A stretch of 64,000 nucleotides of DNA from Gemmatimonadaceae bacterium (lineage in GTDB: Bacteria; Gemmatimonadota; Gemmatimonadetes; Gemmatimonadales; Gemmatimonadaceae). Where the stretch lies: assembly GCA_014379205.1 (NCBI GenBank), contig JACMME010000074.1, forward strand, positions 1 through 64,000, given 5' to 3'. The position numbers were made by a program, and so were the translations under genes. Below the pieces are notes generated by a model that saw nothing but the letters and a program-made list of their open reading frames with translations, was not told where the DNA came from and did no database searches. This document shows, piece by piece, positions 6,708-62,659 of the stretch; position 1 is the stretch's first letter, and every line of letters begins with the position of its first letter.

Positions 6708-8201
6708 TCATGGCACCTGCTTGGACGGAGGAACCGGCGGCGCCTGCTGGGGCTGGGGCTGCTGGGCGGGTGGCGTGCCCGGCTGCAACGGAACCTGCGA
6801 CGCTGGGCGCTGTGACGCCTGCGTGGAGTCGGAAGCCGCACGGATCTTTGTCGCCTTCTCAACAGCGCGCGCAATACCCGCCGCGTTCACCTTGTAATCG
6901 TACTTTTCGCGCAGGACCTCCTGGAGCGGCTGCGGAATCGGTACAAACTGCGCCTGGTCGTGCACAAGCTTCTCCAGATATCCCTCTATGTGTGCCGACG
7001 CGATGCGCTCTCGATCGGACGTCGTCTTGGCGCTGTCAGCGAGTGTTTTCGGCGCGATACCCAGCTCGGTCCACACGCGCGTGACGAGACTCGCAAAGTT
7101 GTTCCGAACGTCGGCCAGCTCGGCGGGACTCAGCGTCACTTTCGCGCTGTCAGCCTGATGCAGCACAAGCTCACCGCGAATGAAGCTGTGCGTCGTAAAC
7201 TGCATCACCAGACTGTCCGCTGCCTGACCGATCTGCGCGCGCAGCATTCCCTGCTGCTGTGGCGGATAGGCGCTTATCCACTGAGCCAGCCGCTCGGCTG
7301 TGAAGTTCCCTGCCTTGGACGTGGCTATGACCGTCTTGTCGTCGCTATGGTCAGCCGGCTTGGCAATCACTTCCTTGATTTTCGCGATTGCGTTGTCCTT
7401 GAACTTGATCTCGCCGCCACTCTCCAGTTTGGCAAGATAGGTACTCTCGGCCTTCTGCATTACGACGCCCGCATTCTGATTGGCGAACTCATCCTTTACT
7501 TCACTGAACTGGGCTCGGCGAATGATGTGGTAGCCGAACTGCGTTTGAACGAGACCTGGCGCAATCTCGCCCGGCTTGATAGAGCGTACGGACTCCTCGA
7601 ACTCCTTCACCATTGTACCGCTCGTGAACACAGGCAGCATTCCGCCTTTTTCCTTTGAGCCTGGATCCATGCTGAATTCCTTCGCCAACTGGGCAAAGTT
7701 CGCAGCCGTAACACGCTTGCGCACCGACTCCGCTTGACGGCGAACTGAATCTCTGGACGCCGCTGTCAGACCCTGTTCGGGAAGGAGGAAGAGGATGTGC
7801 GATGCGGCCAGCGCGTCCCCCTGATTGAAGCGGGCTTCGGACGCGGTGGTATCGACATTCCATGTCTTCACCAGCATGTCGTGCCATTTGGACGCCTTCT
7901 GCTGCGCGAGAACAGGCCAGAGGGCGTCGTCAATGAGCTTGGTATCCTTGAGAGAATCGCCCTGGGCGGACGCGTGGGCCAGCAATTGATAGTTCACCCA
8001 CACATCGGCGAGCGCCCTGGCATTGTCTTCCGACACCGGGATCTTGGATGTGCCGAGCAGCTCGGCCAGACGATCAACCGATAGCTCCTGCGAGGGTGTG
8101 CGCGCGACAACATCGACGTGCGCTGTCATCGCTTCCTTGAAACCATCGCATCCAGCGAGAATAGCGAAGGAGGCTGCGAAGGCGAAAAGAGGACGATTCA
8201 T
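6708..8201 (-). CDS. PpiC/parvulin-type foldase lipoprotein
   Basis: Membrane-anchored periplasmic prolyl isomerase of the PrsA/PpiD type. From the ATG at 8201 the protein has 497 residues and starts with a lipobox signal (FAILAGC, lipidated C18). A SurA_N-like helical part precedes a parvulin domain (about 130-235, with GGMLPVF and FGYHIIRRA). The C-terminal 40 residues are Pro/Gln-rich and probably disordered. The frame is open to 8267, but only the 8201 start gives a lipoprotein signal. It lies just upstream of surA, so two foldases with different anchoring are co-encoded. Confidence 0.82.
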   Translation of the reverse strand: MNRPLFAFAASFAILAGCDGFKEAMTAHVDVVARTPSQELSVDRLAELLGTSKIPVSEDNARALADVWVNYQLLAHASAQGDSLKDTKLIDDALWPVLAQQKASKWHDMLVKTWNVDTTASEARFNQGDALAASHILFLLPEQGLTAASRDSVRRQAESVRKRVTAANFAQLAKEFSMDPGSKEKGGMLPVFTSGTMVKEFEESVRSIKPGEIAPGLVQTQFGYHIIRRAQFSEVKDEFANQNAGVVMQKAESTYLAKLESGGEIKFKDNAIAKIKEVIAKPADHSDDKTVIATSKAGNFTAERLAQWISAYPPQQQGMLRAQIGQAADSLVMQFTTHSFIRGELVLHQADSAKVTLSPAELADVRNNFASLVTRVWTELGIAPKTLADSAKTTSDRERIASAHIEGYLEKLVHDQAQFVPIPQPLQEVLREKYDYKVNAAGIARAVEKATKIRAASDSTQASQRPASQVPLQPGTPPAQQPQPQQAPPVPPSKQVP

Positions 8202-8312
8202 TGAAATCACGTGATGGGGACCAGGGAAAGAGAAATACCGGGAACTGGAATATCGGCTCAAAGACAACCGATAAATGTAACACGCTAGGCGCTGCTAAAG
8301 CTCCAGCGTTGC

Positions 8313-11300
8313 TTACGGTATGAGACTGCGAAGCGCCCGCACCAACCCCTCGAGGATGCCAGCGCCTCCCAACCGCGTCAGCTTGAGAGATAACGGATGG
8401 GCGCGGCGAATTTCCGCCTGGAACTGCACTTCGTGGAATGCCGCCGTGAGCCCCTTCAGCCGGGGAACGGCATCCTCGCGGAAGGTGACTCTGGCTTCGT
8501 TGCCGCGCACCAGAATTCCTTCTATCCCCAATTGCCCTCCCATGATCCGCAGGAGCGCCGAGGAAAGAAAGGCGTCCGCCTGGGGAGGAAGGGGGCCAAA
8601 GCGGTCCCGCAACTCCAGACGAAGCGACTCGACGTCGGCCGGATCGGTGAGGTTGGTGAGGCGACGGTAGACGTCGAGCTTGGCTTCCTGGAAGGGAATG
8701 AAGGTGTCCGGCAGGTATGTGGCAATGTCCATCGACACGTCCGACGGCACAAGCTTGGGGCCTCCTCCTCCATGCATGATACGGCGAACCGTATCGTCGA
8801 GCATGCGCAGGTACAGATCGAAACCGACCGCCTGCACGTGCCCCGACTGTTCCGCGCCCAGCAGGTTGCCTGCGCCACGCATCTCCAGATCCTTGAGCGC
8901 GATGCGGTAGCCGGCGCCGAGCTCCGTGTGGTGCTCCAGCACCTGCAGGCGACGTTCTGCGTCATCGTCGATCGCATCGGGCACCATGAGGTAGCAGTAC
9001 GCGCGCCGGTATGACCGGCCAACGCGGCCACGCAGCTGGTACAACTGCGCCAGCCCGAAGCGATCCGCGCGATTCACGAACATGGTATTGGCGTTGGGAA
9101 CGTCGAGGCCGGACTCCACGATCATGGTGGACACGAGCACGTTCACTTCGCCCGCCACGAATCGTCCCATTATCGCCTCGAGGTCGCGTTCCCGCATCTG
9201 GCCGTGCGCGACTCCGACATTGGCCCTTGGAGCGAGCCGTTTCACATGATCCGCGATCGCCTCGATCGTCTCGATGCGGTTGTGCACAAAGAACACCTGC
9301 CCCCCTCTGTCCAGCTCGCGTGCTACTCCCTCCTCGATCAGTCCGTCGTCCCATGGCTCCACGAACGTCAGGACTGGCGACCGGTCGCGCGGCGGAGTCT
9401 GGATGAGCGTCATGTCGCGCAAACCTGCGAGCGACAGATGCAGGGTCCGCGGGATGGGAGTAGCGGTCAGAGTGAGAACGTCTACGGCCTCCCGCAGCTG
9501 CTTGAGTCGTTCCTTGTGCTTGACGCCAAAGCGATGCTCCTCGTCCACCACAAGCAGGCCGAGATCTCCGAACACGACATCGGGACTGAGAATGCGATGC
9601 GTTCCTATGACGATGTCAATTTTCCTGGAGGCAAGGTCGCCGAGCAGCGCCTGCTGCTCCCTGGCAGTCTGAAAGCGGCTCATGGTCTCGACGCGAACAG
9701 GAAAATCGGCAAGCCGGTCGGCAAACGTTCGCGCGTGTTGTTCAGCGAGAATGGTGGTGGGGACGAGGACGGCGGCCTGTCGGCCGGATTGCACCGCCTT
9801 GAATGCCGCTCTTATGGCAACTTCTGTCTTTCCGTACCCAACGTCGCCCACAAGAAGTCGGTCCATCGGTCTGGGCGACTCCATGTCCTGCTTGACTTCG
9901 TCGGTTGCCTTTCGCTGATCCGGCGTATCCTCGAAGAGGAAGGACGACTCCAGCTGCCGCTGCCACGCGGTGTCGGGGAGGGACTGCTGCTTCGTGGCAA
10001 CCTTCCGTCTCGCGTAGAGGTCGAGCAGCTCCACCGTCATCTCGTGCAGCGCAGCGCGAGTCTTGTCGCGCTGTTGCGCCCAGCGCTTGCCTCCGAGCTT
10101 GTGCAGCCTTGGCGGCGGGGCTTCGTCGGAGACGTCGGTAGCCGACCGGTAGCGCTCGATCTGGTCTACGCGGTAGAGCGGAACGTTGAGACGGTCTCCG
10201 CCTTCGTACTCAATGACCGCGACCTCGATAGTGCTTTCGCGTACGAACACGGTCTCGATGCCACGGTAGATCCCAACACCATGCTCCAGATGCACGACGA
10301 AATCACCGGACTTGAGCGCGGTAATGGTTTCCAGCGACGTACCACCGGCGTAGCGGCGCTTCCGGCGAATGCGGCGCTCACGCCGGAAGATTTCATGATC
10401 GGTGAGGATCCGCAGTCCGCTCCGGCCGCCAAAACCGGCTTCGCCGCGCGGGGGAATGAGAAAACCACCGTGTAGCACGCCAACAGTGAGCGCGGCAGGC
10501 GTTTGCCGGGTGCCGCCATCCGTGAGCAGCTCGTCCAGCCGCTCGGATTGTCCCTTGTTGTCACACAGTATGATCGTGGGGACTCCACCGGCGAGCAGCG
10601 CCTTGAGTCGTTTGATGTCTCGATCAATCGATTCAGGCGGGAGAATTGGAAAAGCGACGGCAGGTGGGCGATCGGACGCCTCGATGCGCTCGATGATGCG
10701 CATGACTCCGAAGCCATTCAGCCCCGCGAGAGTGTCGGTCGGAGACTGGTACAGCTCATCGCGAGAAGGCGCATCTTCGCCGCGGCGGCGAGCGAGGTCG
10801 ATGTGATGCTCAGCCTCTTCCCACGTGCGGCGCATTTCTGGCTCGAGATGCGCGCCGCCAGGTATCACTACCAGTGTATCCGGACTCAGCAGTCCGGCGA
10901 GAGAGCCTCGCTCCTCCGTCTCACCAGCGTTGCCGTGACGGCCATCGACCGGAAGGATGAGCGCGAAATCGGCGTCACGTGTCGAGCGCTGCGTGAGTAT
11001 CTCGAAGTGCCGCAGCTCCGTGATCTCGTCGCCCCAGAACTCGAGCCTTACCGGATTCGTCATCCCGAAGCTGTAGACGTCGAGAATTCCACCGCGCACG
11101 CTGAACTGGGCAACGTCCTCAACGATGTCCACGCGCTCAAAGCCTACCGCCTCGAGGTGTACCGCGATGTCTTCGGGACGGCGTACATCGCCGCGACGGA
11201 GCTCCAGCCGTGAAGTGCTCAGCGCGGCCGGGAGACGGGTCCGCTCCAGCACTGCGCGAGCTGTTGTGACCAGCAGACGGATCTCGCCGCGGCCAATTCG

Positions 11301-41369: not shown

Positions 41370-42290
41370 ATGAAAAAGTTATTCACGCTTGCTTGTTGCC
41401 TGCTCGCTGTGTCGGCGACGTTGGTGGATACCACCGCTGCCCAGAAAAAGCTCAAGGTGGTAACGAGCACCACCGATCTGCACGCAATTGCGCACGAGGT
41501 GGGAGGAAACCGCATCACCGCAACGGCTATCAGCGCCGGCTATCAGGATCCCCATTTCGTTGAGGCGAAGCCGAGCTTCGTGCTGCAGCTTCGAGATGCG
41601 GACGTCTTTGCATTCGTGGGTCTTGACCTCGAGATTGGCTGGATGGGGCTATTGATCGACGGCGCGCGCAATGTGCGCATCAAGCCGGGCGGCTCGGGAT
41701 ACCTCGATGTTTCGAAGGCGATTCCGGTGCTGGATCTTGCATCAGGGCGGGTCGACCGGTCGCAAGGCGATGTGCATCCGCTGGGGAACCCGCACTACTG
41801 GCTCGATCCCGAGAATGGAAAACGCATAGCGCGGCTGTACAAGGCGACGTTCACGCGTCTGGATCCGGCGGGAGCAGCGGAATATTCCCGGAACCTCGAA
41901 GCGTTCGAGAAGCGGCTCGATGCTGCCCGGTCACGCTGGGCACCGATGCTCGCTCAAATCAGGGGCAAGCCAGTAGTGGCCTGGCATACCTCGTGGCGGT
42001 ATTTCGCCAACTATACTGGAATGAACATCGTCGGATTCATGGAGCCCAAGCCCGGCGTGCCGCCATCGGCGCAGCATCTTGCGGGGCTGGTCCAGACCAT
42101 GAAGCGGACCGGCGCTGCCGTTATCATCATGGAGCCGTTCTACGACCGCAAGACGGCGGATCGTGTCGCGGGATTTGCGGGAGCCAAGGTTCTCGTGCTT
42201 CCACCGTCGGTCGGCGGCATCAAGGGATTGAAGGACTACATAGCGCTCCTGGATCACGACATCAAGCAGCTATCCAACGCTCTCAAGTGA
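41370..42290 (+). CDS. znuA: Zinc/manganese ABC transporter substrate-binding protein
   Basis: 306-residue periplasmic metal chaperone of the ZnuA/cluster A-I family. After a signal peptide (1-24) the metal ligands are H62 (QDPHFVE), H142 (NPHYWLDP), H206 (AWHTSW) and an acidic residue near E255. It lacks the His-rich loop typical of ZnuA, so Mn2+ or Fe2+ cannot be excluded. The fourth ligand position Glu rather than Asp is compatible with zinc. It is followed directly by its ATPase and permease (GTGA and ATGA overlaps). Confidence 0.9.
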   Translation: MKKLFTLACCLLAVSATLVDTTAAQKKLKVVTSTTDLHAIAHEVGGNRITATAISAGYQDPHFVEAKPSFVLQLRDADVFAFVGLDLEIGWMGLLIDGARNVRIKPGGSGYLDVSKAIPVLDLASGRVDRSQGDVHPLGNPHYWLDPENGKRIARLYKATFTRLDPAGAAEYSRNLEAFEKRLDAARSRWAPMLAQIRGKPVVAWHTSWRYFANYTGMNIVGFMEPKPGVPPSAQHLAGLVQTMKRTGAAVIIMEPFYDRKTADRVAGFAGAKVLVLPPSVGGIKGLKDYIALLDHDIKQLSNALK

Positions 42291-43051
42291 GCGCACTCGT
42301 CACGTTCGACCGCGCATCGCTGGGCTACGGTCGGCGCGCGGTGCTTTCGAATCTCTCCTTCGAGATACGCGAAGGAGATTTTCTCGGCCTCGTCGGACCG
42401 AACGGGTCGGGAAAGACCACAATTCTTCGCGCCATTCTGGGCGCGCTCCAGCCGATCACCGGTTCCGTGACTCGAGCGGATGGCCTGCGCTTCGGTTATG
42501 TACCTCAGCGCGATCAGGTGGATTACGGCTATCCACTGTCGGTTGTGGATGTCGTGCTCATGGGACGATACGACCGGATCGGACTCGGAAAGCGACCTTC
42601 CAGCGCGGACCGTGAGCTCGCATGCGATGCGCTCGAGCACGTAGGAATTCGCGACCTTGCCGATCGTCCCCTGGCGAATCTATCTGGCGGTCAGAAGCAG
42701 AGGACTCTGATCGCTCGTGCTCTCGTGGGTGACCCCAATGTGCTGATTCTCGACGAGCCCACGAACGGGATGGATCTCGTATCCATGACACAGATACTTG
42801 GACTCGTTCGCGAGCTGCACGAACGTGACGGACTTACGGTACTCATGGTCAGCCACGCATTGAACGAAGTGGCGAACTATGTGGAACGCATAGCGCTGGT
42901 CGCGGATGAGAAAGTACACATCGGTTCGACCGACGAGATAATGAGCGAGGAAACGCTCTCCAACATGTACGGCATTCCCGTTGATGTGAGCTCCTTCAAC
43001 GGGCTCAAGATCGTTGTCGCGCGGCGCGGAAGGGACACTCGCCGCTCATGA
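42287..43051 (+). CDS. znuC: Zinc/manganese ABC transporter ATPase
   Basis: 254-residue ABC ATPase of the metal uptake system. GTG at 42287 overlaps the znuA stop. Walker A GPNGSGKTT (37-45), Q-loop PQRDQVDY, signature LSGGQKQR, Walker B LILDEPTNG and the H-loop VSHAL are intact. An upstream in-frame extension to 41993 overlaps znuA and is not real. The enzyme energises metal transport across the inner membrane. Confidence 0.92.
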   Translation: MSALVTFDRASLGYGRRAVLSNLSFEIREGDFLGLVGPNGSGKTTILRAILGALQPITGSVTRADGLRFGYVPQRDQVDYGYPLSVVDVVLMGRYDRIGLGKRPSSADRELACDALEHVGIRDLADRPLANLSGGQKQRTLIARALVGDPNVLILDEPTNGMDLVSMTQILGLVRELHERDGLTVLMVSHALNEVANYVERIALVADEKVHIGSTDEIMSEETLSNMYGIPVDVSSFNGLKIVVARRGRDTRRS

Positions 43052-43872
43052 TCGATGCCATACTTCTGTTCGCGGATGCTCTGTATGGTGCGCTCGTAAT
43101 TGCGGTCGCGTGTTCGACGCTGGGCGTCTATGTAGTGTTGCGTAGAATCGTGTTCGTAGGCGCCGCGCTCGCGCAGATCTCCTCCGCAGGCATTGCGCTA
43201 GCGCTTTTTCTATCCGGAATCGGGATTGGCGCATTCGGCCTGACACGGCATCCGGTTGCCCTGGCACTAATCGTGACGCTGGCAGGCGCAATGGTCTTCG
43301 CGGGCAGTGGGCGCCAGCGTGTACCTCCGGACGCGACGATCGGTGCTGCGTACGCCATGGCCGCAGCTGCAGGCATTCTACTCATTGCCAAAGCCGCGTC
43401 GGGCGAGGCTCACGACATCTTCCTTCAAGGCAACATACTGGGCATCACGCGTACGGACACGTACGTGCTGATGGCGATTGCGGCTCCGGTGCTGATCGTG
43501 CATGCCGTATTCTACAAGGAATTTCTTTTCATCTCTTTTGACCGCGAGACGGCGAGAACGCTCGGCTATAACGTTACTTTCTGGAACCTGTTTTTCTATC
43601 TGACGTTGGGGTTGGTGATCGCGTTTGCAATGCAGTTTGCAGGCGTGTTGCTTGTTTTCAATTTCCTTGTTCTTCCAGCGGTCGCGGGACTTCTCATCGC
43701 GCGCAGCATGCGGGGCATGTTCGCAGTCGCTATCATCGCCAGTCTGGCGGCATCAATCATCGGCTTTTCTCTCTCCGTCGTATTTGATCTTCCCACAGGG
43801 CCCGCCATTATCGCGGTCTCCGGCGCGCTGCTGCTTATCGCATGGCTCATTCGAATCGCTCAACAGAGATAG
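43048..43872 (+). CDS. znuB: Zinc/manganese ABC transporter permease
   Basis: 274-residue integral membrane permease of the ABC-3 family with about 8 transmembrane helices and the conserved GVYVVLRRIVFVGAALAQISSAGIA segment. ATG at 43048 overlaps the znuC stop (ATGA). The C-terminus overlaps the start of the following beta-barrel gene by 31 bases. No Zur operator is obvious upstream of 39443 or in 39812-39976. Confidence 0.9.
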   Translation: MIDAILLFADALYGALVIAVACSTLGVYVVLRRIVFVGAALAQISSAGIALALFLSGIGIGAFGLTRHPVALALIVTLAGAMVFAGSGRQRVPPDATIGAAYAMAAAAGILLIAKAASGEAHDIFLQGNILGITRTDTYVLMAIAAPVLIVHAVFYKEFLFISFDRETARTLGYNVTFWNLFFYLTLGLVIAFAMQFAGVLLVFNFLVLPAVAGLLIARSMRGMFAVAIIASLAASIIGFSLSVVFDLPTGPAIIAVSGALLLIAWLIRIAQQR

Positions 43873-44474
43873 CTCTTGCGGTTGTGCTGACGCTGGCATC
43901 CGCGCCGAGTGCGTCGGCGCAGCGAAGCACTCGAGCACCAAACTGGTACGCCGAAGCAGCGGTAAGTATCGCACGTCCATTAGTAGAGGACGGAAATGGA
44001 ACCACAGTACGGCCGGGCATTTCGCCAGTGGGCGGGATTACTGCGGGCTGGCTAACGGGAGTGCGGACCATGGTGACGGTCGGGCTCCAGGGCGGCGCAT
44101 TCTCCCTTCGGCTTGAAGACGGCGGCGACTCCTGGAATGGCGGCAACGCCTGGCAGGTTGATATCATGGGTGGCGTCGAGTACCAGATCGCCGGATGCGC
44201 GGAACGGAGCTCCCGCGGATGCACGTCGGCACGTGGCGCCCTCGGCGGTACATTGCTGGCCGGATCGGACGACGTTCTTCCGTTTCGATTTGGCGGCGGC
44301 CGCCTGCATCCCGCTGGCGCGCTTGGCGTGACTGTTCGCCTCTTGGAGAAACGAGCTCTGTCCGCAAATCTGTTGGCTCACGCGTTCCGCCTTGGCGGGA
44401 GTGGAGCGGATAATCCAATAAGCACAAGCGGAACGGCATTGCAGTTTCGCGTCGGAGGCCGGTATGGCCTATAG
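43842..44474 (+). CDS. Exported beta-barrel-like hypothetical protein
   Basis: 210 residues with a signal peptide (about 1-26, SASAQ). The remaining sequence has alternating hydrophobic strands and many Gly residues, ending VGGRYGL, like a small outer-membrane barrel. Two Cys (about 118 and 126) could form a disulphide. It overlaps znuB by 31 bases. No metal motif is visible. Its link to zinc uptake is positional only. Confidence 0.6.
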   Translation: MAHSNRSTEIALAVVLTLASAPSASAQRSTRAPNWYAEAAVSIARPLVEDGNGTTVRPGISPVGGITAGWLTGVRTMVTVGLQGGAFSLRLEDGGDSWNGGNAWQVDIMGGVEYQIAGCAERSSRGCTSARGALGGTLLAGSDDVLPFRFGGGRLHPAGALGVTVRLLEKRALSANLLAHAFRLGGSGADNPISTSGTALQFRVGGRYGL

Positions 44475-45147
44475 GGGAATTTCCGCAGCTGCACTCGTGC
44501 TGGTGCTGTGCGCCTCCTGCGAGCTGCCAACCGTCCCGAGCGAGAGTCCGGCATATGAGCCATCGCTGTTTGTAGACTTTCAAACCCGCCTCATCTACCA
44601 CTGGCCACTCGGTCGTACAATCTCCATCTACACCGGCATTGCTGGTGGGAGTGCGGATGACGATTTACGCGCCGCGATCCTGTCCGCTGCAGCTGGCTGG
44701 AACCGCGCGGTGTATTACCGCGAATTCGATATCCGGCTTGTGAACAGTCCGCTGGATGCAGACGTCATCTTTCACCTCGATGTCGCGCCGCCAATTGTCG
44801 ACACCAACAGCTGCGAGGGTATTCTATTGGGCGCCGGTGGAGTGACTTACTTCTGCGTCGATGAAGGGTTGACCGCAATTCTTTCACTGCCCCTGGCGGG
44901 ATCGTCGAGCGCTCAGAGCAGGGTCAAGTTCGACGTCACCATCAGCAGCGATCCGCTTCAGGTCCCAACCAGGGAGCGATTCTTTGGCATTGTCGCGCAT
45001 GAGATGGGGCACGTGCTCGGAATCGCCAGTCACAGCAGTGATTCTGCTGACCTGATGTTCACAGCGCCCAGCATTTCACAACCATCCGCGCGTGATGCGC
45101 GAACTCTACGATGGTTGCTGCACCAACCGTCCGATCTCGATCTGTGA
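44464..45147 (+). CDS. Matrixin-like zinc metalloprotease lipoprotein
   Basis: 227 residues with a lipoprotein-type signal (about 1-19, ending CASC). The catalytic motif is HEMGHVLGIASH: H179-E180-H183, with the third histidine one place later than the canonical metzincin HExxHxxGxxH (HExxHxxGxxxH form seen in bacterial M10-like proteins), and a downstream Met in DLMFT. It overlaps the previous gene by 11 bases and the RpiB-like gene's GTG by 4. Substrate is unknown. Confidence 0.72.
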   Translation: MAYRGISAAALVLVLCASCELPTVPSESPAYEPSLFVDFQTRLIYHWPLGRTISIYTGIAGGSADDDLRAAILSAAAGWNRAVYYREFDIRLVNSPLDADVIFHLDVAPPIVDTNSCEGILLGAGGVTYFCVDEGLTAILSLPLAGSSSAQSRVKFDVTISSDPLQVPTRERFFGIVAHEMGHVLGIASHSSDSADLMFTAPSISQPSARDARTLRWLLHQPSDLDL

Positions 45148-52087: not shown

Positions 52088-52116
52088 CTGTCAACCTGGT
52101 GACAGCCGTGTTTAAT
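52088..52116 (+). promoter_or_regulatory. Predicted sigma-70-type promoter and inverted repeat for the GlsB/YeaQ gene
   Basis: A -35-like CTGTCA (52088-52093) and a -10-like TTTAAT (52111-52116) are separated by 17 bases. The -35 forms one half of a perfect inverted repeat CTGTCA-N6-TGACAG (52088-52105), which could be an operator covering the promoter. The predicted start at about 52123 leaves a 22-base leader before ATG 52145. Confidence 0.45.
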
Positions 52117-52144
52117 GAGCGCCACACTCTTTGAGGAGGAGAGG

Positions 52145-52402
52145 ATGTCCATTATTGCCTGGATCGTCGTCGGTCTTATCGCCGGCGCGATCGCCAAAGC
52201 CATCATGCCCGGTAATGACCCGGGCGGAATCATCGTTACGATGATCATCGGCGTCGTCGGCGCTATTCTCGGCGGGTTTCTCGGAAATATGTTGTTCAGC
52301 ACCGGTCTGAGCGGCTTTTCGATTCAGACCATCCTGCTCGCCATAGTAGGCGCGCTACTCCTTCTCTTTATCTACCGTATGGCGACACGGCGAACGCCGT
52401 AG
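52145..52402 (+). CDS. GlsB/YeaQ/YmgE family stress membrane protein
   Basis: 85 residues with three transmembrane helices and the family sequence IAGAIAKAIMPGNDPGGIIVTMIIGVVGA. The ATG at 52145 is preceded by GAGGAGGAGAGG, a very strong ribosome site. An upstream in-frame start at 52115 adds non-family residues. Members are acid or envelope-stress responsive small inner-membrane proteins of unknown mechanism. A second family member follows at 52450. Confidence 0.85.
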   Translation: MSIIAWIVVGLIAGAIAKAIMPGNDPGGIIVTMIIGVVGAILGGFLGNMLFSTGLSGFSIQTILLAIVGALLLLFIYRMATRRTP

Positions 52403-52449: not shown

Positions 52450-52731
52450 TTGCCGCTCTGGCTGCATTGGATCCTGCTTGGCTTGCTGGCGGGAGCTCTT
52501 GCGAAGTTCCTGGTGCCAGGGCGGGATCCCTCCGGATGCATCGTGACGATCGTTCTTGGGATAGCAGGTGCTTTTATTGGTGGCTGGATCGGAACCAGAA
52601 TGGGGTGGGGGTCGGTTGGCGCCGCCGACTTGAATTTGCGGTCGCTTGGGCTCGCGACGCTCGGTGCAGTAGTCCTTCTTCTCGCAGGTAGAGTCCTGTT
52701 CCGCAGGCGGAGGGGTGATCCGGAACGCTGA
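52450..52731 (+). CDS. Second GlsB/YeaQ/YmgE family membrane protein
   Basis: 93 residues with the same family core (LLAGALAKFLVPGRDPSGCIVTIVLGIAGAFIGG), TTG start at 52450 behind GGAGGG. It differs from the first copy at many positions, so it is an old paralogue rather than a recent duplication. The C-terminus is basic (RRRRGDPER). It lies 47 bases downstream of the first and is probably co-transcribed. The uvrA start follows after 53 bases. Confidence 0.8.
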   Translation: MPLWLHWILLGLLAGALAKFLVPGRDPSGCIVTIVLGIAGAFIGGWIGTRMGWGSVGAADLNLRSLGLATLGAVVLLLAGRVLFRRRRGDPER

Positions 52732-55771: not shown

Positions 55772-55844
55772 TCCCGAGTAGCTCAGGTGGTAGAGCAGGT
55801 GACTGTTAATCACCGGGTCGGGGGTTCAAGTCCCTCCTCGGGAG
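55772..55844 (+). tRNA. tRNA-Asn (GTT)
   Basis: A full 73-base cloverleaf: acceptor stem TCCCGAG/CTCGGGA with discriminator G, D-arm GCTC...GAGC, anticodon stem GGTGA/TCACC around the loop CTGTTAA with anticodon GTT (55805-55807), and T-arm GGGGG-TTCAAGT-CCCTC with one G-U pair. CCA is not encoded. The anticodon stem-loop and identity nucleotides fit asparagine. Confidence 0.96.
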
Positions 55845-55870
55845 CTGTTATGCAGAACGCAGGCAAGTCG

Positions 55871-55902
55871 CAAAAAGGCCGCTCGACAGAGCGGCCTTTT
55901 TG
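55871..55902. terminator. Bidirectional Rho-independent terminator
   Basis: AAAAAGGCCGCTC-GACA-GAGCGGCCTTTTT forms a 13-bp stem (8 GC-rich pairs plus A/T flanks) with a four-base loop and a T-run on each strand. It ends the tRNA transcript and the convergent minus-strand operon that stops at 55920. Confidence 0.93.
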
Positions 55903-55919
55903 CATACCGGAGTTGTCAG

Positions 55920-56891
55920 TCACTCAGGTCCAGGCTTGAGCGAGCCCGCAATCAGGCGCCACACCACGCCATTCCACAAGGTGAACGGGCGCTCAGCACC
56001 GACAACGATCGAGAATCCATACTGCTCAGCGTAATCGCGGATAGCGTGGCTGTGCTCCGCCAAGCTACCCCGGTAAGCGTAATTCAGAATCGCGAGATTG
56101 CCGCCCTGTTTCAACACTCGCCGCCCCTCGCGAAAATGAACGTCCACCAGGGCCGCTCCAGCCTGCACGAGATACGGGAAAGAGTCCACGGCATACACCA
56201 GATCAAACATCCCATCCGCGAACATGGAAAGATCCCGTCCATCAGTCTTCGTTAGGTGCACGTTCGAGAGACTGCTGCAGCGGAGCCGCGCGCGCGCAAT
56301 CATCTCTCCGGATACATCGACGCCGTATGCGTCACGCACCAACGGTGAGAAAGCGGCCTCCATTCTTCCAGTACCGCAGCCGATTTGCAGAATGCTGCTG
56401 CCAGTACCGACCACCTCCCACCGCTGGAAGAGCTCAACGATCTCTGTCGTCGCTCGCTCCAGAACTTCCGGATCTCCAAGAGAATACAGCGCTACGCTCG
56501 CTTCCTCACTCTGCCGTACACTCCAGTCAAACAGGCGCTCGGTGAACGCCAGCCCCTCCTGCACTGTCTTTGCCGGCTCGCCGGAGTCCACGCCGGAATT
56601 CAGCATGCGAGCGATGTGCGAACACCCCTTTTCGTGCCGCGCTGCCACTCTTGCCAGCACATTCAGCAGGGCATGCACGTCACGTTCGGATATCTCGCCA
56701 AAGTTGGCAAATTCCGTTTTCGCGATGCCTATCGCGTCCTGAACGGCTTCCGCGCTCTCGCTTTCACACAGCATCTGCATGAGCGCCACCTCGGGCGAGA
56801 TCGCCCCGCCGAGGTAGCGGTAAAGCACATCGGCCAGTCCTGGCGCCAAAGCCGATGCATGCGTTGGAGCGCTCTCATCAGCTGCAGACAT
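55920..56891 (-). CDS. SAM-dependent methyltransferase with unknown N-terminal helical region
   Basis: 323 residues from ATG 56891, which is one base after the ATP-grasp gene's stop. Residues about 1-150 are mostly helical and match nothing I recognise. The C-terminal half is a class I methyltransferase: motif I ILQIGCGTGRMEAAF, acidic loop GVDVSGEM and motif II MFDLVYAVDSFPYL. It is the last gene of the three-gene minus-strand operon. The substrate is unknown. Operon context suggests a small carboxylate or amine product. Confidence 0.8.
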   Translation of the reverse strand: MSAADESAPTHASALAPGLADVLYRYLGGAISPEVALMQMLCESESAEAVQDAIGIAKTEFANFGEISERDVHALLNVLARVAARHEKGCSHIARMLNSGVDSGEPAKTVQEGLAFTERLFDWSVRQSEEASVALYSLGDPEVLERATTEIVELFQRWEVVGTGSSILQIGCGTGRMEAAFSPLVRDAYGVDVSGEMIARARLRCSSLSNVHLTKTDGRDLSMFADGMFDLVYAVDSFPYLVQAGAALVDVHFREGRRVLKQGGNLAILNYAYRGSLAEHSHAIRDYAEQYGFSIVVGAERPFTLWNGVVWRLIAGSLKPGPE

Positions 56892-56892
56892 G

Positions 56893-58254
56893 CTACTGCT
56901 GCCTCGCCGTGCAATCAGCGCCGGTTCGCTGCCCCTCCCCGCCCGGCTGCAACCATCCCCACTTGACCAATAGATCGCGGTCTCCCCTAATGAACCTGTC
57001 ACCTATGTCAGTTCGGTATCGAACATTCGGGATGATCACCTTCCTGGCCAGCGAATACGCCCGGTCGCGGGCTTGCTCGGCGCATTCACCGCGACCTGTC
57101 ACCACCGTTACGTATCCGATAGAGCCGGCAGTCACGAGTCGCCCCCCCTGCATCGCCACCTCGCTATGGTGCAGCCCGTCCCGGTCCTCCTCCGACATAT
57201 CCGCGCGAAATGAGATCGGCATTCCCTTGGACAGGTTCTCATACCCGAACGAGTACGGAAATGGTGGAACAGTGAGCACCACACCAAGCGCATACCCCGG
57301 ATGCGTCGGGAACGTTAGCGTCGTTTTCCTGACCATGGCAGAGAATATTTCGGCCCAACCTCCGCCGAAATGCAGCGCGTCGAGGATGGCGAAGCCCGGA
57401 TACCCAAAGCGGGTAGTGAACTCCAACGGGACGATTCCTCGTTCGGACACTATCGTATTCACATTTATGTATCCGACGTATCCATCCTGCGCGAGCAATG
57501 GCGCCATGCGCGCGAGAGTGCTCTCGAAGAGCCTTTCGTAGCCGCGATAGGTGACCAGTGTTCCCATTTCGCCTGTCAGCTCGCCGAGGTCGCCGTTGAA
57601 AAAGCGTTTGTGTTCCCAGTCCAGACAGGCTGGCTGCAGGAAATCCGTGCCGTTGAAGTACGCACCTATGCCAATCTCGACACCCTGGATGTGCTCCATC
57701 AAAACGAAATCCGGTGTTTCCTCATAAGTCCACCGGTCGCGCTGCAGGGACAGCATCGCCACGACGTCGGTGCCGTCGGCCATCTCGCCAACGTAGTTCC
57801 GGAATGAGGCGTAACCCGCACCGTTCATCTTGAATACGAAGCGGCCGGGATGTTCGCGCAGGAACCGAATACCTTCGTCGAAGCCGGCGAAGCGATGGGT
57901 CGCGACAGCCTGGATGTCCATGGTGTCGCGCATCACTTGCTGCCCGTAGGCACGGTCGATCTCCAGGCGCGTCCCGACTGGGCTTCCCCCAATCACGTTG
58001 TAGCCTTGCGCACGCAACTCAGCCTGAAGGTCACCGTGAGTGCTCGTTTCGAAGAGAATGATTCCGTCGGCGCCGGCCGATCTCACCCAGTCCAGCTCGT
58101 TCTTCCAGTCAGTGGTGAATTGCAGCATGCCGCGCATGATGTCATCGCGCGTCTCCACATCGTCCACGTAGACACGCACCTCATGTCCCCGAGCGGCAAG
58201 CCGCAAGTACATGTCCCCGAGCGCCACGTGCTCCCCCATACCCAGGAATCGCAT
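56893..58254 (-). CDS. PurD-like ATP-grasp ligase
   Basis: 453 residues of the ATP-grasp fold, most like phosphoribosylamine-glycine ligase (PurD): N-terminal MRFLGMGEHVALGDMYLRLAARGH, HKRFFNGDLGELTGEMG (PurD HKR...TGGMG counterpart) and the VPLEFTTRFGYPG metal-site motif (PurD EFNVRFGDPE counterpart). The central ATP-grasp core is intact, but the PurD residues for phosphoribosylamine are not evident. Position between two methyltransferases points to an amide- or ester-forming role outside purine synthesis. ATG 58254 is used; TTG 58260 overlaps the upstream stop less cleanly. Confidence 0.8.
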   Translation of the reverse strand: MRFLGMGEHVALGDMYLRLAARGHEVRVYVDDVETRDDIMRGMLQFTTDWKNELDWVRSAGADGIILFETSTHGDLQAELRAQGYNVIGGSPVGTRLEIDRAYGQQVMRDTMDIQAVATHRFAGFDEGIRFLREHPGRFVFKMNGAGYASFRNYVGEMADGTDVVAMLSLQRDRWTYEETPDFVLMEHIQGVEIGIGAYFNGTDFLQPACLDWEHKRFFNGDLGELTGEMGTLVTYRGYERLFESTLARMAPLLAQDGYVGYINVNTIVSERGIVPLEFTTRFGYPGFAILDALHFGGGWAEIFSAMVRKTTLTFPTHPGYALGVVLTVPPFPYSFGYENLSKGMPISFRADMSEEDRDGLHHSEVAMQGGRLVTAGSIGYVTVVTGRGECAEQARDRAYSLARKVIIPNVRYRTDIGDRFIRGDRDLLVKWGWLQPGGEGQRTGADCTARQQ

Positions 58255-58261
58255 GCTCAAG

Positions 58262-59311
58262 TCAGGGTGAGACCGTATACACCGGTGCGGCTATCGGGCC
58301 ATGAAGTATGGCGCGTAGCGTAATCTCGTCCCAGCGATCCAGAAGCCAGATGCGACCCTCTATCGAGCTCCGAAATCCTTCCAGAGCGCTGGCACCCTGA
58401 TCCCTGAAGCTGGTGCAAAGGGAGCGCATGGCTTCACGTCCGTCATGGGACGTCGTTGCCGTACGAGAGAAGCAACCGGACATCAGTAAATACCCGAAAC
58501 GCGCCGCGCCGTCGGGTGCGACAACGCGCAGCGTCTCATGCGAGCTGTTCAGGAAGGCGGTCGGCAGGGTCAGCAGGTAGTTGTGTACCGATCCGGAATA
58601 CTCACCGTCGGCAATCAGGACAACGAACAGCTCATCGAGCTGATAACCAGCATCTTCTACGTCGCCCACGACCCCTGCAGGATCACATAGCGAGCACCAC
58701 GAAAGGACGAGAGTTTCCGGTTGCGTAGCATATGCCAGTGCGGTCACACGCCGCAGATGCGCGCTGCCGTCCGCTCCCGCCCCCGCCTCCACGGGAAGGC
58801 CGGCCTCAGGAGGTTCGGGGATGTAAGGAGGATTGCAAACGAGGATGTCGGTACGCTGACCTCGGAGCACCGCCTCCATGACGGGGTCCCAGAGACTCAT
58901 GCACACGAATCTCGCTCTGCCGGCGTAGCCTAGTCGCTCCGCATTCGCTCGCGCGCAACTCTCCGCATCCGGATCTATGTCAACACCAAAAAGCGTGGCG
59001 CTGGGCCCGAGACTCAACAGACGGAAGCCGACGAGGCCGCTCCCGGAGGTCAGCTCGACAATACCGGGGCTCGAACCGAGGTGTGCCGCCAGCGCTCGCT
59101 CACCCGCCAGGACACAGAGCAGTGTGTCCTCCGGTGAAAAAAAACTCGAGAACTGGAAGGGTGGCTGGAATTGCTCGAGCCGGCTTGCTTCCGCGGAAAA
59201 TGCCGCGAGTCGAGACCAGGGTGGAACCGGACGTACAAAGGCTGTACTGCGGGCTTGCTGCGAAATGGATATATTCCTCGCCGCTGTTGGTCGGGGGCAG
59301 GAGACTTGCAC
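58262..59311 (-). CDS. NPPY-motif (HemK/PrmC-like) SAM-dependent methyltransferase
   Basis: About 349 residues: SAM motif I IVELTSGSGLVGF (84-96), acidic VDIDPDA (110-116) and the catalytic NPPY (160-163) characteristic of N-methyltransferases acting on Gln, Asn or planar amines. The C-terminal 150 residues do not follow PrmC. The N-terminus (1-65) is variable and the GTG start at 59311 is uncertain. It is first in a three-gene operon and divergent from the diiron oxidase gene. Substrate is unknown. Confidence 0.78.
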   Translation of the reverse strand: MQVSCPRPTAARNISISQQARSTAFVRPVPPWSRLAAFSAEASRLEQFQPPFQFSSFFSPEDTLLCVLAGERALAAHLGSSPGIVELTSGSGLVGFRLLSLGPSATLFGVDIDPDAESCARANAERLGYAGRARFVCMSLWDPVMEAVLRGQRTDILVCNPPYIPEPPEAGLPVEAGAGADGSAHLRRVTALAYATQPETLVLSWCSLCDPAGVVGDVEDAGYQLDELFVVLIADGEYSGSVHNYLLTLPTAFLNSSHETLRVVAPDGAARFGYLLMSGCFSRTATTSHDGREAMRSLCTSFRDQGASALEGFRSSIEGRIWLLDRWDEITLRAILHGPIAAPVYTVSP

Positions 59312-59392
59312 TGAGCGCGGCTGCGAATCCTAGGCGCCGCAACGCGACTCGCAAGTGGCGTGCGAGCGGAAGACCGTTAACCGGATACCATA

Positions 59393-60589
59393 ATGCCGAG
59401 CATTCGGAGTGAAGGCGTTGCCGCACTTGCCAACGCGGACCACGAGCTTGACGAGACGCAATCCCATGCGGCCGATCGCGCGCGGCCGATCGCGCGCTTT
59501 ATCGAGCTGCCGGATCTCCGCCTCCTCCACCCGGCCGGCAAAGCTGATTTTCCTGCGAGACTGCGCGGGATTCTCTCCGCGGGCTCTCTGGATGCGACGC
59601 TAGCGGAAGAGCCGGGGCTTGAGCAGGAAGTCATTGAACAGGCGATGTCGCTCGCAGCGCGCGCATATCCCGCACACGCCACCACGGAGCGACAGAGCGC
59701 TCGCTGGATTGATCACTCCGCTCGCGACATGCACCACCGTGCACTTCTCGCTTTGTATCAACAGCACATGCGCCTGCCAAATCATGGCCTGGCGGTCAAT
59801 CAGTTCCATCCCCTCGCCTGCAGGCTGGTCGGAATACTGGAGTCGGCATGGGAGCGAGACACTCTCGCGAGAGCTCGTGCGTCAAACCCTCTCTCGGATT
59901 CCGACCTGCCAAGGGATCCGGGTTTGTTCGTGGACTGGTACCGGCGCACCGCGTTCAATCATCCCCTGTACGAGCACGAACTGTACAGTTTTCTGGCCAG
60001 CGAGGCGACTCGCGAGCAGATCCACTGGTTCTTCACCATGGAAAGCGCCGGAGAAGCGGCGTTCGACGATCTGGTGGCCATGTCGCAAGTCGGCACGCGG
60101 GGTGACGTCAAGATGGAGATGGCGAGCAACTACTGGGATGAAATGGGGAACGGTAAGGAGCACGCCGTGCACACCTACCTTTTCCATCGACTCGCGGACG
60201 ACCTCGCGGTTACCGCTCCGTCCGCCGACGAGCTGCCCTGGCAGGTATTGTCAGGCGTGAACCTCATGCTCTGGTGCTCCATTTCGCGGAGGAATGCATT
60301 TCGGGCGCAGGGAGCGTTGGGCGCCGTCGAGCTACTCGCCCCGCAGCGATGCACTCGCGTGGTGCACGGCGCCCATCGCGTAGGCATTCCGAAGAAGACG
60401 ATGAGCTACTATGGAGCGCACGCGATCATTGATATCGGCCACGCGGAAGGGTGGCTTGAGCACGTGGTTCGCGCGCAGGTCGCCGATATCCCGGACGCGC
60501 GTGTTGGCATTGCCGAGGGACTTGTTACGCGCGCGAACGCCAGTCTGGACTATTTCGACTACTGCCTCGCTTCTCTGCGAGCGATGTAG
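59393..60589 (+). CDS. Heme-oxygenase-like diiron (iron-containing redox) enzyme
   Basis: 398 residues of the heme-oxygenase-like diiron oxidase/oxygenase group (iron-containing redox enzyme, PF14518-like). Ligand candidates along the helical bundle are H190-H195 (HPLYEHEL), E217 and E221 (MESAGEAAF), D249/E250 with H257 (NYWDEMGNGKEHAVH), and H343, D347, H350 (YGAHAIIDIGHAEGW). Relatives make nitro, N-nitroso, alkene or cleaved-chain products from amino acids. It is divergent, with an 81-base promoter gap, from a methyltransferase/ligase operon. The function is unknown. Confidence 0.82.
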   Translation: MPSIRSEGVAALANADHELDETQSHAADRARPIARFIELPDLRLLHPAGKADFPARLRGILSAGSLDATLAEEPGLEQEVIEQAMSLAARAYPAHATTERQSARWIDHSARDMHHRALLALYQQHMRLPNHGLAVNQFHPLACRLVGILESAWERDTLARARASNPLSDSDLPRDPGLFVDWYRRTAFNHPLYEHELYSFLASEATREQIHWFFTMESAGEAAFDDLVAMSQVGTRGDVKMEMASNYWDEMGNGKEHAVHTYLFHRLADDLAVTAPSADELPWQVLSGVNLMLWCSISRRNAFRAQGALGAVELLAPQRCTRVVHGAHRVGIPKKTMSYYGAHAIIDIGHAEGWLEHVVRAQVADIPDARVGIAEGLVTRANASLDYFDYCLASLRAM

Positions 60590-60694: not shown

Positions 60695-62497
60695 TCAGGG
60701 CCGGTTGGATTCTTCTCCCGGCTGTATTCTAAAATGGACTATCGACACACTCGCCGGACTAAGCTGAACGCGGCGAGAGTCGCTCGGTCGCTTGGCATGT
60801 TCGCCTCGCACCACCACGCGCGTGTTTGGCGGAATTCCGCAAATAGCGTAGCGACCCGACGCATCACTCGTTGCGCTCGCGTTGTCCCTTTCCTTCCCTC
60901 CCGCCTGCCGCAACCACTGAGCTGTAATAATGGCGTTCGCGAGAGGTTCGTCATTCGACGCGTCCTGAACCTGGCCGCGAATCATGCCAGCCCCAGCGGC
61001 TACCGAGACAGTGCCTTCACCGCATTCCGCCGCCATCAGCGCAACACTGGAAGGAACCGAGAGTTCTGCAACCAGCCGCTCACCGTGACGCAACGCAAGC
61101 TCTTTTTTCGCGACCGTCATGCCAAGGGAATCGATGCGCGGATGCGTGAATGTCAAAGAAACGGGTCCAGCTGCGAGGCTATCTATCTCGAAGCGTCCGT
61201 CGCTGGATGTCAACGCGGTTCGTGAGCTACCGGACGCCGAGACCTTGGCACCGGCAAGCGGTGCTCCGCTGGTGCTGTCGAAGACCACTCCTTCGATAAT
61301 CGCATCGGGTGCTTGCGACGCTTCCTCTGGCGTGCCCGCTGTCGAGCCCGCCTCGATTGTAGATGCCGAAGTCCTGGGGCTATTTCCGGCAACCGTACGT
61401 GAGCCCAGAGGAACGACTGTCGCGCCACGCTCACGCACTCCCACGAACACCTGACCGATTCGAGCTTCGCTGACGAGCGCGCCCCCTGGCACGGTTGAAT
61501 CCCGACCGGGCAACCGCGTCTGCACAAGGATGGGCATCTTGATCACCCACTTGTCGACGAACCAGGCGCCACTCGGAAGCTGACTGAAGGAAATCCGCCC
61601 CCCAAACTTGTCGCGCGGAATTTTGCGCACGAGCTCGGTATACAGGAAGTCGAGGTACAGTAGCTTGGCGGAGCGCGGGTCCAGCCATAGAACGCCTTTC
61701 ACGTCGGGCAGCTTGCGCCCCTTCACAGGCTCGAAAGCAAGTCCAATTAGCGTGTCCTTCCCTGCCGCGGAGCGCTGAACTCGAAAGCAGTGGTCGGCGA
61801 TGAAGGTCTCCGACAAAAGAATGTGCGCATCAGGCGCGTAGTAGATGTACTCTGCCGTGTTTATGGAATCGCGGTGCACATACCCATGCCTGGAAAGGTC
61901 GTCCGCTGGAATGCTGGCGAAGGCGTTTTCGCTAACGGCCGCCCATTCGTCCCACGTTTTCTCCCATTCGACGCGAACGCCCCGCTTGTCGAGACCCCGT
62001 TCGTGCTGCGTGATTTTGGTCTCGAAAGCTCGCTTGTCCTGGGTGAGCGATGTCGCGTACAGCACTATTTTGGCTTCGTCCCAGAGCTTGGCTACTTCGG
62101 ACCCTTCTCCCAGTCCACCCCCCATGCACTTCCCCCGATTTGCTGAAACGACGACATCAGTTAATCGGGAAGCAATGGAAGACGCCGTCAGGCGTCTTTC
62201 GACGGTCTCACCCGCCGCCACATCGAAGGGTGCCGAAGTTGTGCTCTTGAACCCGACGCGCATCGTCCGAAGCGAATACGTGCCATGCGCCGGAACGACC
62301 AGCTCGAAGTGGCCGAGGTCGTCTGTCAGTACCTCCGTGACCTGCTTGGTGCCGGAGAGCAGACCCACCACCACGCCCGGTATGCCTGCTCCGCCCTCGT
62401 CCCAAACCCCTCCGCGAACGCGCTGCGCGTCCAGGGATTGAACGGCGAATGCGCTGAGGAATAGGGGGATCAGGGATGAGAAGCGCTTCTGGGGCAC
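60695..62497 (-). CDS. Exported protein with carboxypeptidase-regulatory-like domains
   Basis: 600 residues from GTG 62497, which gives a proper signal peptide (about 1-25, ending LDAQ). Immunoglobulin-like carboxypeptidase-regulatory repeats are visible at about 28-110 (VRGGVWDEGGAGIPGVVVGLL) and again at about 395-465 (IIEGVVFDSTSGAPLAGAKV) and 515-595 (MIRGQVQDASNDEPLANAII). A central region of unknown fold lies between. No SusD or TonB barrel is attached. It is a secreted or surface protein of unknown function. The frame extends to 62578. Confidence 0.7.
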   Translation of the reverse strand: MPQKRFSSLIPLFLSAFAVQSLDAQRVRGGVWDEGGAGIPGVVVGLLSGTKQVTEVLTDDLGHFELVVPAHGTYSLRTMRVGFKSTTSAPFDVAAGETVERRLTASSIASRLTDVVVSANRGKCMGGGLGEGSEVAKLWDEAKIVLYATSLTQDKRAFETKITQHERGLDKRGVRVEWEKTWDEWAAVSENAFASIPADDLSRHGYVHRDSINTAEYIYYAPDAHILLSETFIADHCFRVQRSAAGKDTLIGLAFEPVKGRKLPDVKGVLWLDPRSAKLLYLDFLYTELVRKIPRDKFGGRISFSQLPSGAWFVDKWVIKMPILVQTRLPGRDSTVPGGALVSEARIGQVFVGVRERGATVVPLGSRTVAGNSPRTSASTIEAGSTAGTPEEASQAPDAIIEGVVFDSTSGAPLAGAKVSASGSSRTALTSSDGRFEIDSLAAGPVSLTFTHPRIDSLGMTVAKKELALRHGERLVAELSVPSSVALMAAECGEGTVSVAAGAGMIRGQVQDASNDEPLANAIITAQWLRQAGGKERDNASATSDASGRYAICGIPPNTRVVVRGEHAKRPSDSRRVQLSPASVSIVHFRIQPGEESNRP

Positions 62498-62659
62498 TGG
62501 ATACCGGACTGAAAAAACGGTTGTTGGTGCAGGAATCGCATTGCAGGATAGCCGCTCGACACTGGGCTGCGCCACCACAGGATGCGAGGCCTGGCAGCGC
62601 CAATGATTTCAGCTCCTTACGGGCCTTTTCATCGGCAGCTCGATAGGGCGGCAAACTCA

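Follow-up and report, generated by a model that had tools for sequence, protein, structure and literature searches.

A conserved four-gene set with a HrmI-like diiron oxidase/oxygenase and a PurD-like ligase in Gemmatimonadaceae, a candidate NRPS-independent small-molecule cluster

Four adjacent genes in the window (the whole stretch of DNA analysed, 64,000 nucleotides from a Gemmatimonadaceae bacterium) encode a heme-oxygenase-like diiron oxidase/oxygenase (HDO), an ATP-grasp ligase and two class I methyltransferases, and raise the question of whether they act together in a biosynthetic pathway and, if so, of what kind. A sequence-only reading had described three packed minus-strand genes divergent from the diiron gene, and this layout was borne out (Table 1). 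The ATG of the ligase gene (58254) lies 7 bases past the end of the NPPY methyltransferase gene (58262), with an alternative TTG possible at 58260, and the ATG of the second methyltransferase gene (56891) is separated by a single base from the end of the ligase gene (56893). Two start codons are uncertain, as homology begins at residue 33-37 of the HDO ORF (about 59489), where its orthologues begin, and at about residue 25 of the NPPY methyltransferase ORF (about 59240). The divergent layout around the shared intergenic region is kept in all orthologous loci; a search of this region for a sigma-70 consensus gave no match.

Table 1. Features of the four-gene locus, in window coordinates
Feature	Position	Strand	Basis
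HrmI-like heme-oxygenase-like diiron oxidase/oxygenase (HDO) gene	59393..60589	+	PF14518, HrmI match, orthologues
Divergent intergenic region between HDO and NPPY methyltransferase genes, presumed to hold both promoters	59312..59392	.	Sequence, gene layout
HemK-type (NPPY) class I methyltransferase with long C-terminal extension	58262..59311	-	TIGR03534 (below cut-off), fold match, orthologues
PurD-like ATP-grasp ligase of a separate subfamily (EFT...RFGYP)	56893..58254	-	GARS_A/GARS_C, orthologues, motifs
Second class I methyltransferase (Methyltransf_11)	55920..56891	-	PF08241, orthologues

The four ORFs did not arise by chance, since their orthologues in relatives are 44-66% identical (HDO, 60-66%; ligase, 55-59%; NPPY methyltransferase, 44-51%; second methyltransferase, 44-48%). 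Compared with these orthologues, synonymous sites are near saturation (pS 0.67-0.78) and non-synonymous change is low (pN 0.15-0.39); as the proteins remain this alike at near-saturated synonymous divergence, all four genes are under purifying selection. No transporter, regulator or resistance gene was found within the four-gene set. A RiPP reading was rejected because the cluster has no conserved space for a precursor ORF, and anti-phage defence was rejected because the matches to mad2 reflect a generic methyltransferase only.

Families of the four gene products

The diiron enzyme belongs to the HDO superfamily, with a match to PF14518 (Haem_oxygenas_2) at 1.4e-33 and 116.7 bits (cut-off, 28.9), and is encoded by the only PF14518 gene in the genome. 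Among solved structures HrmI was its sole good match (2.2e-39; profile, 6.7e-45), at an identity of only about 30%, and the NYWDEMGNGK and ISRR blocks are present in both proteins. Residues E217, E250, H260, H343, D347 and H350 align with HrmI, in which all six are kept; the last five are invariant in 24/24 aligned HDOs, while position 217 is E or D. These residues are the predicted metal ligands, assigned by alignment and by the 3His/3carboxylate rule (PMC13108848). In the HDO tree, the Gemmatimonadaceae proteins form a branch of their own beside the HrmI/Streptomyces and proteobacterial groups. HrmI and BelK, the lysine N-oxygenases of hormaomycin and belactosin, have the same fold family and 3His/3carboxylate ligands in common with this HDO; they are, however, only about 30% identical to it, and their clusters are of the NRPS type, whereas the present HDO is accompanied by a PurD-like ligase and methyltransferases. 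A parallel in pairing is offered by streptozotocin, where SznE and SznF, a methyltransferase and an HDO N-oxygenase, act on one amino acid. SznF nevertheless carries a cupin domain and a 3His/4carboxylate ligand set (also in PMC13108848), and its sequence does not match that of the HDO described here. HrmI converts L-lysine to 6-nitronorleucine, HDOs with the same ligand set catalyse differing chemistries, and only about a dozen members of this fast-growing family have been characterised (PMC13108848).

The ligase contains the GARS_A and GARS_C domains, and thus has the ATP-grasp fold in common with PurD (GAR synthetase), but its TIGR00877 (purD) score of 92.5 bits is far under the cut-off of 288. 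In a comparison that included the genome's own PurD, which has the GGREHA loop and EFN...RFGDPE, the ligase was found to lack the GGREHA loop and to carry EFT in place of EFN and RFGYP in place of RFGDPE. The true PurD is encoded on contig C178 and scores 468.5 bits, over the cut-off. A housekeeping PurD identity was therefore rejected, and the concern that the ligase might be the organism's only PurD does not hold. Members of this subfamily related to the ligase were found in Roseomonas, Sphingomonas, Halarchaeum and other Gemmatimonadota; those with complete sequence lack GGREHA, and all have EFT together with RFGYP or RFGNP. The ligase is thus a member of a separate PurD-like subfamily and an extra paralogue rather than the housekeeping copy, and the same applies to the PrmC-like methyltransferase of the set (see below). 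Ligases of the EFT/RFGYP type at 35-40% identity also occur outside the family, both elsewhere in the phylum and in a haloarchaeon (L003, L004, L047, L050 and, from Halarchaeum, L031). Inspection of L003, L004 and L031 revealed no HDO near the ligase, so that the subfamily has another role there.

The NPPY methyltransferase has an MTS/HemK-like domain and scores 57 bits with TIGR03534 (PrmC), under the cut-off of 199.1, while the genome's true PrmC, on contig C71, scores 206.9 bits and exceeds it; a housekeeping PrmC identity was rejected on these grounds. Its AlphaFold2 model (pLDDT 80.5) has MmtN as best fold match and TrmM and PrmC as the next ones; the matches of this predicted structure also include the carbamoyl N-methyltransferase Asc-Orf2. 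MmtN acts on free methionine. The HemK-type fold is common to MmtN, Asc-Orf2, PrmC/HemK and the present protein, whose NPPY motif is as in PrmC; the known enzymes differ from it at about 17-20% identity and TM-scores of 0.35-0.46 over the query, and they lack its long C-terminal extension. The second methyltransferase matches PF08241 (Methyltransf_11) at 5.3e-16 and has a helical, conserved N-terminal region with no assigned function. Its AlphaFold2 model was poor (pLDDT 62.6), and fold matches were therefore left out.

Conservation of the set within and beyond the phylum

Co-occurrence was assessed in a draw of 395 genomes sampled from the phylum and in a search of 179 genomes of the family. 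The HDO was present (61-66% identity) in nine genomes of the phylum draw (the window's own included), all of the same family, and across the draw ligase orthologues (>55%) were found only in HDO genomes, beside the HDO. All four genes occur in the same order in four relatives (L016, L017, L018 and L020), where the second methyltransferase likewise adjoins the cluster, which upholds the proposed four-gene neighbourhood and removes the objection that such homologues never co-occur elsewhere. L015 carries the first three genes, with the second methyltransferase reduced to an N-terminal ORF of 101 aa, genome G429 (L063) carries the HDO, NPPY methyltransferase and ligase genes up to the point where its contig stops, and G014, G186 and G030, from two other genera, carry HDO and NPPY methyltransferase without the ligase. 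Matches to the NPPY methyltransferase were obtained in 11 of the 179 family genomes, ten of them with HDO and one as a decayed copy. In this last genome, G431 (L064, about 8137-8711), the NPPY methyltransferase survives in fragments and the ligase as its first 37 residues, the HDO is gone and the genes flanking the decayed copy are intact. Since the ligase and second methyltransferase are absent from some genomes, the genes do not form an obligate unit of four; they do form a conserved set that is inherited together and is under purifying selection, with the HDO and NPPY methyltransferase as its core. When 84,980 genomes were scanned with the HDO alignment, only five loci were returned, four of them from Gemmatimonadaceae MAGs or Roseisolibacter; as the scan relied on two very strict peptide patterns, it does not establish absence elsewhere.

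Outside the phylum the set recurs in part on plasmids. A plasmid of Sphingomonas daechungensis encodes a ligase relative of 43% identity (41805-43063, minus strand), divergent from an HDO (43143-43999, plus strand) and an NPPY methyltransferase (44014-44838, plus strand), and thus carries the trio in rearranged form; its HDO and ligase were each matched in two pieces and may be frameshifted. On plasmids of Komagataeibacter, Sphingobium, Variovorax and Legionella, the HDO adjoins an NPPY or NPPF methyltransferase. In Sphingobium yanoikuyae pKN1 (L028 1215-7681), this pair follows genes for cyanophycin synthetase, isoaspartyl peptidase and cyanophycinase, which suggests a link to cyanophycin-type dipeptides, and in Legionella sainthelensi (L035 3917-5746) a 609-aa protein with an arginine-deiminase/DDAH-like N-terminal domain fused to an NPPF HemK-type methyltransferase is encoded directly upstream of the HDO. 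The pairing is not universal, as several Novosphingobium and Sphingobium plasmids have only one of the two genes, and no relative of these methyltransferases or of the ligase was found near the more distant HDOs carried by plasmids of Klebsiella, Streptomyces, Paraburkholderia and Burkholderia. On Paraburkholderia aromaticivorans pBN2 (L026 1757-7843), a distant HDO was observed near a PGM1-type peptide ligase, a 2OG-Fe dioxygenase and an Asp/Asn beta-hydroxylase, possibly another HDO/ATP-grasp cluster.

The HDO-paired methyltransferases of the two lineages are only distantly related, so that the pairing is either very old or has arisen more than once, both of which favour a functional link. 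That the four are ordinary, unrelated genes and chance neighbours is very improbable. Each of them does come from a large family, and the distant ligase relatives in other families of the phylum do stand without an HDO; in at least six relatives, order and adjacency are nonetheless conserved although the sites are not syntenic, the trio recurs in an alphaproteobacterium, and the co-occurrence itself already contradicts chance. A more doubtful extension is that HDO and NPPY methyltransferase may constitute an old, widely transferred two-enzyme module making an undescribed N-oxygenated, methylated amino-acid unit, with partners that vary by host: Gemmatimonadaceae and Sphingomonas would use a new PurD-derived amide ligase, Sphingobium a cyanophycin-type gene set and Legionella an arginine-deiminase-like domain.

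Proposed chemistry and its alternatives

Clusters that combine an HDO with an ATP-grasp ligase are a documented kind of peptide pathway, with at least 25 types including mangotoxin (PMC13185094), which makes a pathway of this sort plausible here. As in the mangotoxin mbo cluster and other members of this kind, the HDO gene lies beside an ATP-grasp ligase gene, the two are conserved together, and NRPS and carrier-protein genes are absent. In the mbo cluster, however, MboA is another type of HDO and makes an alkyne (PMC13185094), whereas the ligase here is PurD-like and the set includes methyltransferases, of which none is mentioned for mbo or the HDO/ATP-grasp clusters in PMC13185094. No pathway described in the papers searched matches the four-gene set, in agreement with the sequence-only reading, which did not recognise it as a known pathway. 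The general kind of cluster is known, and the combination of parts appears to be new.

A dedicated small-molecule pathway is probable. Judging from the enzyme families, the HrmI-like HDO would carry out an O2-dependent oxidation of an amino-acid side chain, most likely by turning a primary amine into a hydroxylamine or nitro group, the reaction that HrmI performs on L-lysine. An amide or dipeptide would be formed by the PurD-like ligase, which would activate a carboxylate as an acyl phosphate for coupling to an amine. The NPPY enzyme would place a methyl group on a nitrogen (or O/S) of the small molecule, while the second methyltransferase may add one further, dispensable methyl group. We give about even chances to this scheme in full, namely an NRPS-independent cluster for a small amino-acid-derived metabolite built by HDO oxidation, amide formation by the ligase and methyltransferase caps, the product most likely being a small modified amino acid or dipeptide. 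Given a dedicated pathway, we lean slightly towards an N-oxygenase role for the HDO. Against the scheme stand the low identity to HrmI, the varied chemistry of HDOs that have this ligand set (PMC13108848), the lack of transporter, regulator and resistance genes within the set, and the genomes in which the ligase and second methyltransferase are missing.

It is possible, at a clearly lower probability, that the cluster does make a small molecule but that the HDO acts on carbon once the intermediate has been ligated or methylated, through desaturation, C-C cleavage or a rearrangement, as in MboA, BesC, UndA or AetD. All of these reactions are performed by 3His/3carboxylate HDOs with near-identical ligands (PMC13108848); moreover, MboA acts on a tripeptide that is assembled by ATP-grasp ligases encoded in the mbo cluster itself (PMC13185094). 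Conversely, the sole sequence match among solved structures is the N-oxygenase HrmI, although structures of MboA, BesC and UndA exist. Much less probable is a role in macromolecule modification, with the NPPY methyltransferase acting on protein, tRNA or rRNA in the manner of PrmC and TrmM and the HDO and ligase serving a protein-modification or self-sacrificial route. Release factors or RNA are the usual targets of HemK-type methyltransferases. Self-sacrificial HDOs exist as well, for example CtCADD (PMC13108848). The genome nevertheless has its own PrmC, the top fold match is MmtN, an extra PurD-like ligase is better suited to small-molecule amide formation, and a distribution as patchy as that of the NPPY methyltransferase in the family is unlike a housekeeping modification.

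The chemistry of Gemmatimonadota is little known, and a small-molecule cluster of four genes without carrier proteins is small enough for reconstitution in a single experiment. Such a reconstitution would assign a function to the pairing of an HDO with a HemK-type methyltransferase, which is seen repeatedly across several phyla, and also to a PurD-like ligase subfamily present in an archaeon as well.

Genomic context of the cluster

A tRNA-Asn gene lies at 55772-55845, and direct reading of the sequence revealed a perfect hairpin with a T-run at about 55877-55905. The suggestion that the tRNA marks an integration context was not sustained: no second copy of the tRNA-Asn 3' end was found in the window and no flanking direct repeat, hence no att repeat, and the clusters of relatives lie at other places. 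A tRNA-linked island was rejected for these reasons, and the position of the tRNA-Asn is incidental. In genus g4, most loci have an ECF sigma/anti-sigma pair on one side of the cluster and an amino-acid permease on the other, while the permease orthologue of the window's genome (69%) is on another contig. The permease was accordingly rejected as a fifth member, also because G431 keeps it beside the decayed cluster, and it is a resident neighbour. The cluster is patchily distributed, and its differing contexts indicate that it has changed place, by transfer or rearrangement.

Beside the HDO gene, the window encodes a carboxypeptidase-regulatory-like domain protein (60695-62578, minus strand) with no sign of membership in the set. 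Elsewhere in the window, two similar small membrane proteins are encoded in tandem on the plus strand (52115-52402 and 52450-52731); they share GLIAGAIAK / GLLAGALAK...PG.DP.G and resemble a duplicated transglycosylase-associated (GlsB/YeaQ-like) protein.
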